NCBI GenBank assembly: GCA_027486525.1
Contig: JAIXOY010000256.1
Location: 1 to 35,448 of the forward strand
Origin: Pseudomonadota bacterium
Lineage (GTDB): Bacteria; Bdellovibrionota; Bacteriovoracia; Bacteriovoracales; Bacteriovoracaceae
Reading direction: 5' to 3'
DNA length: 35,448 bases
The stretch's first letter is position 1. Each line of letters begins with the position of its first letter. This document shows positions 18,381-23,087 of the stretch, in pieces. The notes under the pieces are model-generated. The model was not told the origin of the DNA. It saw nothing but the letters and a program-made list of their open reading frames with translations, and ran no database searches. The translations under genes and the position numbers were made by a program.

Positions 18381-19425
18381 GACGAAAAATCTCCCGCAAA
18401 GCCACTTCACCTGAATCTACGGCGAGAGGGGTTATTTGGGAAGTGCGCAACGAGCCCTGTTTAGCCTTGGTCAAAAAAGCTGCTAAGCGTTCCGCCATTT
18501 CACTGCGTGGGGCGCGAGGCTCTACAACATCCACTGTATAATCCACCTCATCGCGGTATCTCAGCGCATTCCACCACTGATGATTGTCAGTGGCCTGTGG
18601 GAAAGGGATCAGAAAACAGGGCTTACGGACAATGCGTAATTCCGCCACGGTGCTAGCACCTGCTCGAGCAATCAGGACGTCACACCAGGCATACTGTTCC
18701 TGGATGTTATCGAGATATTTGGTCGCATGATAGGTCACGTTCTTCCCTGCCACAAACTTGGGCTGCTGGTCCTGACCCGTTTGGTGAATCACCTCCACAA
18801 GTCCTGCTTGATCACGCTGAACCCACTCGCCAACGAGATCATTGATCTGTGTGGCCCCCAAGGACCCCCCAAAGACCAAAACCCGCAAATGACCGTCTTG
18901 CGCGCGAGCTGGAGTATGTGCAATTGAGGAGCGCGTTGGGTTGCCCACCACACGCACCTTAGAAGAAAGTGAATCTGGAATACCCTGTGTATCTCTAAAG
19001 TGCGTAAAAATCACAGTGCTCAAACGAGCCAAAAGTTTATTGGTAAGACCAAGAACTGCGTTTTGCTCAAAGATGAAGACAGGTATTCCCTGAATTTTGG
19101 CAGCCAATAAAGTAGGGCCACAGACATAGCCCCCAGCGCCCACCACAAAATTCGGTCGCTTCGTCTGAAAATTTCTAAAAATTTTTATGAAAACTAAAAA
19201 GTTGCGAGCAATTGAGCTCAAAAGTTTGATTGGGTCTTTAGTTCGCAATGGCCAACTTGCCAGATGCTCTACGGGAAGTTTGGCAAAAAGTTTGTAATCT
19301 AGCGGACGCTGACCAGTGAGATAACTTACTTCGAACTGTTGAGCACTCAGTCGCTCACCAAGGGCGATGGCCGCATTAATATGCCCACCCGTTCCGCCCG
19401 CAACTAGGACCGCGTACTTAGTCAT
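18355..19425 (-). CDS. murG: Lipid II synthase MurG
   Basis: GT-B glycosyltransferase on the inner face of the membrane that adds GlcNAc to lipid I. The N-terminal GGTGGHINAAIAL loop, VVGAGGYVCGP, IFEQNAVLGLTNK, VFGGSLGA and the donor-binding region ARAGASTVAEL with PFPQATDNHQWWNA are all present. Length is 356 residues. The start overlaps the ftsW stop (ATGA), and its 3' end overlaps the start of murC. Confidence 0.96.
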   Translation of the reverse strand: MTKYAVLVAGGTGGHINAAIALGERLSAQQFEVSYLTGQRPLDYKLFAKLPVEHLASWPLRTKDPIKLLSSIARNFLVFIKIFRNFQTKRPNFVVGAGGYVCGPTLLAAKIQGIPVFIFEQNAVLGLTNKLLARLSTVIFTHFRDTQGIPDSLSSKVRVVGNPTRSSIAHTPARAQDGHLRVLVFGGSLGATQINDLVGEWVQRDQAGLVEVIHQTGQDQQPKFVAGKNVTYHATKYLDNIQEQYAWCDVLIARAGASTVAELRIVRKPCFLIPFPQATDNHQWWNALRYRDEVDYTVDVVEPRAPRSEMAERLAAFLTKAKQGSLRTSQITPLAVDSGEVALREIFRHVGTIQKN

Positions 19426-20567
19426 GCCCGTGCAGTCCGTGTGCGCACTTCTGTGGCCGAAGCTTTAGGTTCTTTGCCATTCCAGCGAATAGCTGCGAAG
19501 ACAAGTCCCAATCCTGCAAGATTGGCCACCATGCTCGAGCCACCATAGCTAATAAACGGAAGATTCAGTCCCTTGGTAGGAAGAACTCCAAGAACCACAC
19601 CCATATTCAAGAATGCTTGAAAACCGATACAGAACACTACTGAACACACCATCATGCCTGCTAGGCGCGATTTAAGCGCTAGAGCCAGACGGAAACCAAA
19701 GAAGATAAACGCCAAGAAGAGAACAACTGCCGCAACAACCCCCGCTAAGCCAAGCTCTTCGCCGACGACGCTAAAGATAAAGTCGTTGTAGGCCTCTGGA
19801 AGGTAGAACAGTTTCTCGTTAGAATTTCCCAGACCCTGTCCGGTAATTCCACCATTGGCGAACGCCAAGAAGCTTTGAATAATTTGGAAACCAGAATTTT
19901 TAGGATCTTTCCAAGGATCAAGGAAAGCTAAAATACGTTTGACCCGATAGGGAGCTGCAAACAACAAGGCCACGGCACTAATAAACCCAAAAGCTGTCGC
20001 GCTCCAGAACAACTTACGAGGAAAATGGCTCAAGAACGCAATGAAAGCCACGATCATCGCGGAGATGGCAAACGTACCGAAGTCTGGTTGCTTCAGAAAA
20101 ATCAGCAGTGGCAAAACAATGCCAAGAGAGTTGATGGCTTTCTTTTGATTGTCGTAGACCTGAAAATTCTCAAAGTATTTAATCGCTGCAAGAATGATGG
20201 AATACTTCACGAACTCGCCTGGCTGCAAATTCATGAAACCAATATTCAACCAACGCTGAGATCCCTTCATCGCCACACCAATACCTGGCACTTGCGTGAG
20301 AGCGAGAACAAAAACAAAGAGTGAATTCACCGGATAGGCGTATTTGTACCAGAAAGAAATTTTTGTACGAGCAAGAAGATAAGCTGCGGCAGTTCCAAGA
20401 CCAATAAAGAAAAGTTGCTTAAAGAGAAAGTGCGTCGGTGCACCGAATTGCTCACGAGCGTACATATAGCTCGATGAGAAAACCATCACGACACCAAAGA
20501 AGATTATCATCACGATGGTGAGGAGAAAGAGGTTAGTTGTCTTTTCTAGTCCGTTATCATGTTCCAT
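19422..20567 (-). CDS. ftsW: Septal peptidoglycan polymerase FtsW
   Basis: SEDS-family glycosyltransferase with about ten membrane helices that polymerises lipid II at the septum with FtsI. Family features include QRWLNIGFMNLQPGEFVK, KQPDFGT, and the late block GVLPTKGLNLPFISYGGSS. The ATG at 20567 is preferred because AAGGA lies seven bases upstream; the alternative ATG at 20597 adds ten residues (MEASGNKDAS) and has no binding site. The two ATGs lie at the ends of a perfect 12-bp inverted repeat. With the later start the protein has 381 residues. Confidence 0.93.
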   Translation of the reverse strand: MEHDNGLEKTTNLFLLTIVMIIFFGVVMVFSSSYMYAREQFGAPTHFLFKQLFFIGLGTAAAYLLARTKISFWYKYAYPVNSLFVFVLALTQVPGIGVAMKGSQRWLNIGFMNLQPGEFVKYSIILAAIKYFENFQVYDNQKKAINSLGIVLPLLIFLKQPDFGTFAISAMIVAFIAFLSHFPRKLFWSATAFGFISAVALLFAAPYRVKRILAFLDPWKDPKNSGFQIIQSFLAFANGGITGQGLGNSNEKLFYLPEAYNDFIFSVVGEELGLAGVVAAVVLFLAFIFFGFRLALALKSRLAGMMVCSVVFCIGFQAFLNMGVVLGVLPTKGLNLPFISYGGSSMVANLAGLGLVFAAIRWNGKEPKASATEVRTRTARA

Positions 20568-20597
20568 GGAAGCATCCTTGTTTCCGGATGCTTCCAT
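20566..20597 (-). promoter_or_regulatory. Inverted repeat spanning the ftsW ribosome binding site and start
   Basis: Perfect 12-bp arms ATGGAAGCATCC and GGATGCTTCCAT (20586-20597 and 20566-20577) with an 8-base loop, in the gap between murD and ftsW. In the mRNA the likely AAGGA site is at the loop edge and the start codon sits at the stem base, so the fold would hide translation signals. There is no T-tract after it, which argues against a terminator. Translational control is inferred. Confidence 0.65.
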
Positions 20598-20618: not shown

Positions 20619-22001
20619 TTACAATTGGAAGATGAGTTTTTTGTAGTAGTTGCCCTTCTCTTCGAAGTCGCGGAACACATCGGTGCCGTCGTTTCCTGGG
20701 CAAAGCAGGATTGTGTCCCCGGTACGGCTCTTCTGATAGGCCAAGAGGACCGACTCATCAAATGAACCAACCAAGAATGTCTGAGTGGCTTCACCCAAGA
20801 TGCGGTTCATGCTCTCTTTGACCTCACCTACCAAAACGAGGCAACGGACCTTCTCGTTGATCACACCAAAGTACTTATCGTACGGCAGTCCTTCGATCTC
20901 TTTGCCGCCGGCGATGAGAATAACAGGCTCCTTGAATGCCTCAAGGCTGACCTTGAGTTCATCCATCGTTTCAGACTTCGAGTCGTTGTAGAACTTGACG
21001 CCGTTTTTTTCGACGACGAATTCGAGACGGTGAGGGATGCCAGGAAAGTTTTCAATGCAGTACTGGATTGATTCGTCAGAGCACTTCAAGGCTTTGCAGG
21101 CGGTGATCGCAGAAAGCATATTTTCGCGGCTGTTTTGACCCACGATGCGCATATCCGTTACTTTAAACTCTGAGTGGTAATGAATGTTCGAGTGAATGCG
21201 CTTGTCATGAAAGTGCGTGCCCTGGATCTCGTTGATCACACCCATGCTCACGAAGCTCTTGCGTGAGTACCAGAAAGTTTGTGCCTGGCAGTTACGAAGA
21301 ATGCTGTTACCGGCCAGCTTATCGAAGTTGACCACAAGGTGGTCGTCTGGACCCAAGTCGCGCGCGACCTTCAATGCGGTATCGAGGAATTCACCAGGGC
21401 CCTTGAAGCGCCCGGGAATGGTTTTTTCTTCAAGGTTTGGATAAACGGCTAACACCGGCTTGAAGTGAGGCACGGTCTGTAATTGAAGGGGCGAAACTTC
21501 AACGACCACATAGTCCATCTCTTCGCGGTTAGGCATCATGAGGTAATTAATGAAGGGCTCTTCGCTGGTGCCACCGACAAACACGTTCTTCTTATCAACA
21601 CGCAATGTGTAAGCAATCATATGCGCGATGGTGGTGCGGCCATAGCTTCCACAAACGGCCACCACTGGTTTTTTGCAGTTGGCGTAGGCGAATGCAAAGT
21701 CACTATACACTTCACGACCTTGGTCACGAGCTGCCTTGAGCTGTGGCAAGTTCGGATCAACAGACGAGCAATACACCACCACGTCGGCTGAGGTGAAATC
21801 TTCCTCGCGGTGCTCACCCAAGGTCATCGTTGGATTGGGATTAATCTTTTTAAGACGCTTGACCTGTTTGTTCAAATCGAAAATAGGCTTGATATCCGTG
21901 ACTTTAATTTCACAGCCCACTTGGTTGAAGAGGTTAATCAGGGCAAAGCCTGTTTTGCCAAGTCCAACGACTAGAACTTTTTTGCCTTTGTATTTTTCCA
22001 T
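20619..22001 (-). CDS. murD: MurD-type ligase with altered ATP-binding motifs
   Basis: By position (mraY-murD-ftsW) and overall layout this is UDP-N-acetylmuramoylalanine-D-glutamate ligase. The N-terminal VVGLGKTGFALINLF segment and the C-terminal GIPHRLE (321-327) and YNDSKSE (338-344) fit MurD. The central ATPase domain does not. The P-loop reads GSYGRTT (118-124), with Arg122 in place of the P-loop Lys, and the place of the usual NxxxDHxD motif reads NLEEKTIPGRF (189-199), with no Asp-His pair. The usual C-terminal SPACASFD-like block is LCPGNDGTDVF. MurC, MurE and MurF in the same run keep standard motifs. Either this MurD works in a non-standard way or it has changed role and a second MurD exists elsewhere. 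Length, 460 residues, is normal and the frame is intact. Confidence 0.82.
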   Translation of the reverse strand: MEKYKGKKVLVVGLGKTGFALINLFNQVGCEIKVTDIKPIFDLNKQVKRLKKINPNPTMTLGEHREEDFTSADVVVYCSSVDPNLPQLKAARDQGREVYSDFAFAYANCKKPVVAVCGSYGRTTIAHMIAYTLRVDKKNVFVGGTSEEPFINYLMMPNREEMDYVVVEVSPLQLQTVPHFKPVLAVYPNLEEKTIPGRFKGPGEFLDTALKVARDLGPDDHLVVNFDKLAGNSILRNCQAQTFWYSRKSFVSMGVINEIQGTHFHDKRIHSNIHYHSEFKVTDMRIVGQNSRENMLSAITACKALKCSDESIQYCIENFPGIPHRLEFVVEKNGVKFYNDSKSETMDELKVSLEAFKEPVILIAGGKEIEGLPYDKYFGVINEKVRCLVLVGEVKESMNRILGEATQTFLVGSFDESVLLAYQKSRTGDTILLCPGNDGTDVFRDFEEKGNYYKKLIFQL

Positions 22002-22010
22002 ATAATCCTC

Positions 22011-23087
22011 TTAACGTAATTTCAGCGAAGCGAGAGCGAGGATCGCAAGCACAAGGCTCACAATCCAAAAACGCACGATGACTTTGGTTTCAGGCCAACC
22101 GGCCAATTCGAAATGATGATGGATAGGGGCCATGCGGAAGATCCGCTTCTTGCGGGTCTTGTAAGAAGCCACTTGCAGGATGACTGACAAGGCTTCGATC
22201 ACAAAAATTCCACCGATGATCACGAAGAGAAATTCATTCTTTGTAACCACGGCCATGGTACCAAGCACTCCCCCCAATGAGAGTGAGCCCACGTCCCCCA
22301 TGAAAATCTCTGCGGGGTATGAGTTGTACCAAAGAAAACCCGCACCGGCGCCCACGAGAGCAGCGGCCAGCACAAGAATTTCGCCAACGTCAGGAACATA
22401 GGGGATCAATAGATATTGGGCGAACTCACTGTGGCCCGCCATATAACCAAGCACACCAAGAGTTGAGGCAGAAATAATGACCGGGCCGATCGCCAAACCA
22501 TCAAGCCCGTCGGTGAGATTAACTGCGTTACTCGTGCCCACAATAACGAGGGCGGCAAACGGCACGTACCACCAACCAAGATCAATCACGGCCTCTTTCA
22601 TAAAAGGAAGATGGAGCTGTGAATCGGTAACGTTCCACTTGATCATCACATACGCCGCGAGACCCGCTGTCGCGAACTGCCAGACAAGTTTCTGACGAGC
22701 TGAAACGCCCTTAGAATTCTTCAACAGGACCTTGAGATAATCATCCAATCCGCCCAAGAAGAAATAACTCATCATCACGAACAGGGTGATGAGAAACGGA
22801 AAGCTAAAGAAGTTTCCGCAAATCGCACAGGCCACCAGCGCTGAGCCAATGATAAAAACACCACCGAAGGTCGGAGTGCCTTTTTTCTTTTTGTGAGATT
22901 CCGGGCCATCCTCCCGGATGCTTTGACCGAACTGACGGAGCTTCATCAATGCAATGAATCTCTTTCCCCAAACAATTGAGACGATGATTCCAATCAAAAA
23001 AGCGATGAAAGATCGTACTGTGATGTAGCGAAAAAGATTCAAAATATGATGGTTCTGACTTAGCGGATAAAGCCAGTGAAAAAGCAT
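22011..23087 (-). CDS. mraY: Phospho-MurNAc-pentapeptide translocase MraY
   Basis: Integral membrane enzyme that makes lipid I from UDP-MurNAc-pentapeptide and undecaprenyl phosphate. The aspartate-rich catalytic segments LGGLDDYLKV and NAVNLTDGLDGLAIG are present, with GTPTFGGV near residue 71 and the C-terminal APIHHHFEL loop. About ten membrane helices are expected. Length is 358 residues. It sits 25 bases after murF and nine before murD. Confidence 0.96.
   Translation of the reverse strand: MLFHWLYPLSQNHHILNLFRYITVRSFIAFLIGIIVSIVWGKRFIALMKLRQFGQSIREDGPESHKKKKGTPTFGGVFIIGSALVACAICGNFFSFPFLITLFVMMSYFFLGGLDDYLKVLLKNSKGVSARQKLVWQFATAGLAAYVMIKWNVTDSQLHLPFMKEAVIDLGWWYVPFAALVIVGTSNAVNLTDGLDGLAIGPVIISASTLGVLGYMAGHSEFAQYLLIPYVPDVGEILVLAAALVGAGAGFLWYNSYPAEIFMGDVGSLSLGGVLGTMAVVTKNEFLFVIIGGIFVIEALSVILQVASYKTRKKRIFRMAPIHHHFELAGWPETKVIVRFWIVSLVLAILALASLKLR

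Follow-up and report, generated by a model that had tools for sequence, protein, structure and literature searches.

Does the murD-like gene in the dcw (division and cell wall) cluster of a Bacteriovoracaceae genome still encode a D-glutamate (D-Glu) ligase and, if not, what has it been kept for? The question arises from contig JAIXOY010000256.1 of assembly GCA_027486525.1 (positions 1 to 35,448, the whole stretch of DNA analyzed, hereafter the window), in which a preliminary description had noted a MurD homologue without the P-loop lysine and the Asp-His motif of Mur ligases. The analysis presented here makes it likely that this protein (dcw MurD) is a pseudo-MurD, that a canonical MurD from another locus of the genome (distal MurD) performs the D-Glu step, and that the dcw copy is retained as a probable non-catalytic component of the precursor complex. 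The gene and the positions at issue, numbered against E. coli MurD where indicated, are the following:

20619..22001, minus strand: murD-like gene of the dcw cluster (dcw MurD, the candidate pseudo-MurD), a Mur-ligase fold without the catalytic residues
21630..21650, minus strand: P-loop GSYGRTT, residues 118-124, with R122 at the position of E. coli K115
21567..21569, minus strand: T145 at the position of E. coli N138, a lost contact of uridine diphosphate N-acetylmuramoyl-alanine (UDP-MurNAc-Ala); Thr in 104/109 dcw copies, Asn in 30/30 distal MurDs
21405..21437, minus strand: NLEEKTIPGRF, residues 189-199, replacing NxxxDHxDRY, with the H183 equivalent lost; no His in the dcw copies, His in 30/30 distal MurDs
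20970..20972, minus strand: E344 at the position of E. coli T321, a lost D-Glu contact; Glu in 101/109 dcw copies, Thr in 30/30 distal MurDs

Catalytic and substrate positions of the dcw copy

The open reading frame (ORF) encodes 460 amino acids (aa) from an ATG start, its frame is intact, and its product is a MurD by profile and by fold. The TIGR01087 (MurD) profile matches it over positions 1-439 of 441 with 239.8 bits (cut-off 211.95), the AlphaFold model predicts a three-domain Mur-ligase fold (predicted local distance difference test, pLDDT, 93.5; predicted template modelling score, pTM, 0.91), and MurD structures are the best Foldseek matches of this model (TM-score up to 0.78 by query length). 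In contrast, every catalytic-residue signature looked for is missing from the protein, which suggests that it should not be annotated as a functional MurD.

Residues were surveyed in 109 dcw MurD sequences of the clade (some species being present in both collections), aligned to E. coli MurD and to canonical dcw MurDs of the phylum (Bdellovibrionota). The P-loop reading given in the preliminary description, with the codon CGC for Arg122, proved correct, and the alignment with relatives that it recommended as a check for error revealed Arg at the K115 position in all 109 sequences and Lys in none, with five different Arg codons in use across the relatives. The Asp-His segment is indeed NLEEKTIPGRF; the E. 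coli stretch aligned to it is NVTEDHMDRY, and the H183 position drifts in the dcw MurDs among Y, N, F, T and other residues. Also as described, the motifs are kept in MurC (GSHGKTT and NIDNDHLDYH), MurE (GTNGKTT and FTQDHLDYH) and MurF (GSNGKTT and NIGATHLEFF) of the same cluster.

N138 is retained in just 2 of the 109 sequences and T321 in 8. The K348 position drifts, Lys not being among the four common residues there, and so does that of S415, which is kept in 65 of the 109 and is Gly in the window protein. At the position of K198, a residue that binds magnesium when carbamylated, the window protein has Ala. The T110 position is Cys throughout (109/109), and N113, G73, F161, H267 and N322 are also lost in the dcw MurDs of the clade. 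When five key residues (K115, N138, H183, T321, K348) are considered together, 99 sequences keep none of them and the other 10 just one. The HRLE and NDSK motifs (the latter at residues 339-342, beside E344) are both present, as had been claimed. Retention of the N-terminal UDP-binding part, on the other hand, holds only in part: D35 and a basic residue at 37 remain, but Ile replaces T36 and Ser replaces G73, while in the central domain the UDP-MurNAc-Ala contact N138 has become Thr, and T321 and K348, which contact D-Glu, are gone too.

Published structures and reviews place G73, N138 and H183 of MurD at UDP-MurNAc-L-Ala (PMC12844806), and T321, K348, S415 and F422 at D-Glu or D-Glu mimetics (PMC3527612). 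With positions among these contacts lost as well as the P-loop Lys, the damage extends to the sites of ATP and of both the first and the second substrate, and we infer with good confidence from the alignments that the dcw MurD is without D-Glu ligase activity.

The second MurD and constraint on the dcw copy

A search of the genome for a second murD with standard motifs, as proposed in the preliminary description, recovered a copy at G000:C14:2430-3782 with 28% identity to the dcw MurD, the motifs GTNGKTT and NLTPNHSERY (NxxxNHxxRY) and a TIGR01087 score of 323.8 bits. K115, N138, H183 and T321 are all kept in the 30 distal MurDs inspected in the family, and a MurD beyond the dcw copy occurs, by match counts, in 75 of 77 relatives that are at least 90% complete. 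Since the distal MurDs form an orthologous clade in the tree and the same gene adjoins distal murD in 25 of 29 loci, this copy appears to have been inherited vertically, and contamination was rejected as its origin for the clade. Glutamate racemase (MurI), the source of D-Glu, is present. The earlier suggestion of a repurposed copy with the true MurD elsewhere is thereby supported, its scaffold or regulator part being at the stage of a proposal.

Two further observations concern the distal copies. All 30 carry Arg at the K348 position and Asn, Ser or Thr (once His) at that of D182. These positions are reported to set the choice between D- and L-Glu in Xanthomonas MurD2, where they are Arg and Glu, respectively (PMC8788868), which makes the Glu stereospecificity of the distal MurD of interest, although MurI is present. 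Also, contig G014:C33 (3248 bases) bears a partial canonical MurD adjoining an ORF for a 752-aa MurI-MurC fusion, unlike every other family member; it is probably a contaminant and was excluded from the analysis.

The R122-bearing dcw MurD is conserved across more than 30 genera, its named relatives being assigned to Bacteriovoracaceae, Halobacteriovoraceae, Bacteriovorax and Halobacteriovorax (Bacteriovoracia). The intact frame under selection noted previously was corroborated: between the window and its closest relative the ratio of nonsynonymous to synonymous substitution rates (dN/dS) is 0.010, the lowest among the genes for which it could be computed, versus 0.019-0.052 for MraY, FtsW, MurF and MurG in the same genome pair. 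A decaying gene, a sequencing error or an assembly artefact has next to no probability and was rejected, since R122 is fixed in 109 of 109 related sequences from this many genera, dN/dS is this low and the frame is intact in every relative examined.

When 77 named loci are compared with the window, median protein identity is 65% for dcw MurD and 67% for MraY, followed by FtsW (53%), MurC (52%), MurG (50%), MurE (39%) and MurF (38%). Among 28 genomes carrying both copies, the dcw MurD is more conserved than the distal MurD in every genome pair (378/378; median identity 64% versus 36%), with 119 invariant columns versus 39. In the MurD tree, a quick tree with Shimodaira-Hasegawa-like approximate likelihood ratio (SH-aLRT) support in which some forks are weak, the dcw MurDs of this group form a single clade, which branches on a long stem from within the canonical dcw MurDs. 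The dcw MurD is a protein under strong new constraint and not a relic.

Strong purifying selection, together with the MurD-level TIGR01087 score and the retention of E157, T116, R302 and D317, would also suit a MurD that is still active through a rearranged ATP site, the other option put forward in the preliminary description, in which Arg122 would stand in for the P-loop Lys, other residues for the Asp-His motif, and the distal MurD would be redundant. However, the contacts of ATP, UDP-MurNAc-Ala and D-Glu were lost together and are kept by the second copy, there is drift at the H183, K348 and S415 positions, nearly all of the near-complete genomes maintain a fully canonical MurD, and in other families that have a distal MurD the erosion of the dcw copy has struck different residues (see below), so that this option is very improbable.

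About 30 positions are newly invariant in the dcw MurD of the clade, including PIF at 39-41, C117 and R122; P39-I40-F41 and C117 lie beside the uridine and nucleotide sites. A further segment with such positions is a hairpin:

21159..21230, minus strand: clade-specific invariant hairpin EIQGTHFHxRRIHSNIxxHSEFxV, residues 258-281, with conserved His 263, 265, 270 and 276

H263 and H265 are conserved in 109 of the 109 sequences, H276 in 107 and H270 in 102, and the AlphaFold model predicts strands E261-265, E268-271 and E277-280. The newly invariant residues, the four His among them, could belong to a new enzyme, whose altered nucleotide chemistry would serve the activation or ligation of some other substrate and whose hairpin perhaps binds a metal. 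This seems unlikely, given that none of the sequences retains the P-loop Lys, that no substitute catalytic set is recognizable, and that the conserved His are equally explicable as a binding surface.

Predicted role in the precursor complex and known counterparts

In every locus where the flanks allow a check, the dcw MurD of the clade sits between mraY and ftsW, which in the window are placed as follows:

22011..23087, minus strand: mraY, the adjacent upstream gene of the operon, separated by 9 bases from the dcw MurD gene
19422..20597, minus strand: ftsW, directly downstream, 21 bases from the dcw MurD gene

We propose that the dcw MurD, a complete Mur-ligase fold that would descend from an ordinary dcw MurD of Bdellovibrionota, can presumably no longer ligate D-glutamate, that this step is probably performed by the second, canonical MurD, and that the dcw copy has probably been kept as a scaffold, adaptor or allosteric subunit of a cytoplasmic peptidoglycan-precursor complex around MraY and FtsW, where its putative role would be structural or regulatory. 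The protein has the marks of a pseudoenzyme, namely a kept fold, lost catalytic residues and purifying selection, and its unchanged operon place and MraY-like conservation fit a scaffold role without proving it. A scaffolded complex of MurC-F, MraY and MurG, with possible channeling of precursors, has been proposed (PMC4929429).

Several observations weigh against this proposal. The scaffold role is a prediction, suggested by synteny and conservation. The TIGR01087 profile still scores the dcw MurD above the MurD cut-off, and Lys is kept at the K198 position in 62 of the 109 dcw copies. Two nearly complete drafts, G039 and G050 (∼220 and 310 contigs, respectively), showed no distal MurD match, although other species of the genus of G050 do carry a distal MurD. 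Also, the P-loop glycines, T116, E157 and S159, and the adenine and ribose residues N268, N271, R302, D317 and K319 (assigned as in E. coli MurD), are still in the dcw MurD, and because of their retention nucleotide binding, and perhaps a different reaction, is possible.

A retained adenine pocket would fit nucleotide or precursor sensing as well as it fits a structural role, and a tentative alternative is that the dcw MurD, with an adenine-nucleotide pocket and part of the uridine pocket still in place, is not a scaffold but a regulatory pseudoenzyme that responds to ADP/ATP or a UDP-MurNAc precursor and acts as a switch for the distal MurD or for MraY. The near invariance of the five adenine and ribose contacts, the fixation of Arg in the P-loop through five codons, and the new invariants C117 and P39-I40-F41 beside the nucleotide and uridine sites are consistent with such a function; the loss of several UDP-MurNAc-Ala contacts (G73, N138, H183) argues against it.

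Should the dcw MurD indeed be a non-catalytic component of the precursor complex, a non-catalytic function of MurD, an essential enzyme and antibiotic target, would matter enough to be a target of selection in its own right. Mur ligases are suspected to work at MraY and MurG as members of a scaffolded complex, which is hard to dissect as the same proteins also catalyze. Evolution appears here to have split the two jobs, with a distal MurD that catalyzes and drifts and a dcw MurD that is without catalysis and nearly frozen, and because of this apparent separation a non-catalytic MurD role becomes directly testable. Throughout the group, annotation by profile score would meanwhile assign the name of functional murD to the wrong gene.

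Compared to canonical MurD (TIGR01087, E. coli MurD), the dcw MurD has the same three-domain fold, mraY-ftsW position, adenine and ribose contacts, and HRLE and NDSK motifs, but is without the P-loop Lys, Asp-His motif, N138, G73 and D-Glu contacts, and its genome also has a second, canonical MurD. Pseudoenzymes as such are a known kind, and the Mur-ligase fold has been reused beside the classical pathway in MurT/GatD and other Mur-ligase-like proteins, MurT being, unlike the dcw MurD, an active ATP-dependent amidase subunit. The FAM20A/FAM20C pair (PMC5413348) similarly combines a dead paralogue under selection with an active one; there, however, the fold differs and allosteric activation is demonstrated, whereas an allosteric role of the dcw MurD is a proposal. 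Xanthomonas MurD2 is likewise a MurD homologue with altered Glu-site residues, but it is an active L-Glu ligase with its reaction intact, whereas the ATP site of the dcw MurD is lost (PMC8788868). MurD2 belongs to the L-Glu/MurL pathway of bacteria without D-Glu formation (PMC8788868). Its signature (Glu at D182, Arg at K348) is not found in the dcw MurD and MurI is present, so that this pathway is not supported as the cause of the altered Glu site, MurL itself not having been searched. No report of a catalytically dead MurD, nor of MurD work in Bacteriovorax or Bdellovibrio, was found in the open-access literature searched, subscription papers not being covered.

Repeated erosion across Bdellovibrionota

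The survey of the phylum comprised 144 genomes, in which motifs at selected loci and gene context were inspected. Seven families (f1, f6, f7, f15, f17, f22, f24) have an eroded dcw MurD; all seven also have a distal MurD, and the eroded copy is always the one between mraY and ftsW. N138 is lost from the dcw copy in all seven, accompanied by K115 and H183 in f1, E157 and K198 in f7, H183 and K198 in f17 and f24, and K198 in f22. In f6 just N138 and nearby residues are lost, and this dcw MurD may still be active. In the single-MurD families of the sample (f3, f4, f5, f8, f10-f13, f18, f20, f21) the dcw copy keeps N138, K115 and H183.

On the MraY tree the intact and eroded states require 6 changes, or 5 when f6 is scored as intact, a number of loss events that is approximate as deep MraY forks are partly unresolved. 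That all eroded families share one ancestral loss was rejected by the approximately unbiased (AU) test applied to MraY (p 7e-8, or 1e-4 when f6 is left out), the tested group having been defined after the survey. On balance, we favor the view that in Bdellovibrionota the arrival of a second MurD was repeatedly followed (at least 5 times on the MraY tree) by conversion of the dcw MurD from an essential enzyme to a component of the peptidoglycan-precursor machinery without catalytic function, and that in Bacteriovoracia this dcw copy is now among the most conserved proteins of the cluster.

The distal MurDs are of at least two kinds, an f1 type and an f6/f7 type, the latter standing apart in the MurD tree. 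In f7 (G030, G056) the distal murD adjoins murF outside the dcw cluster, and the dcw stretch read there is without murE and murF. Two f8 genomes (G031 and G142, 94-97% complete) gave no MurD-level match, their best scores of 60-67 bits being in the range of Mur ligases other than MurD, against ∼430 bits in other genomes of f8; a MurD loss or an assembly gap is possible. In f9 (G058, G032) the dcw MurD is canonical in its motifs yet divergent and groups weakly with the distal MurDs of f6 and f7, for whose second copy it may be a source or a relative.
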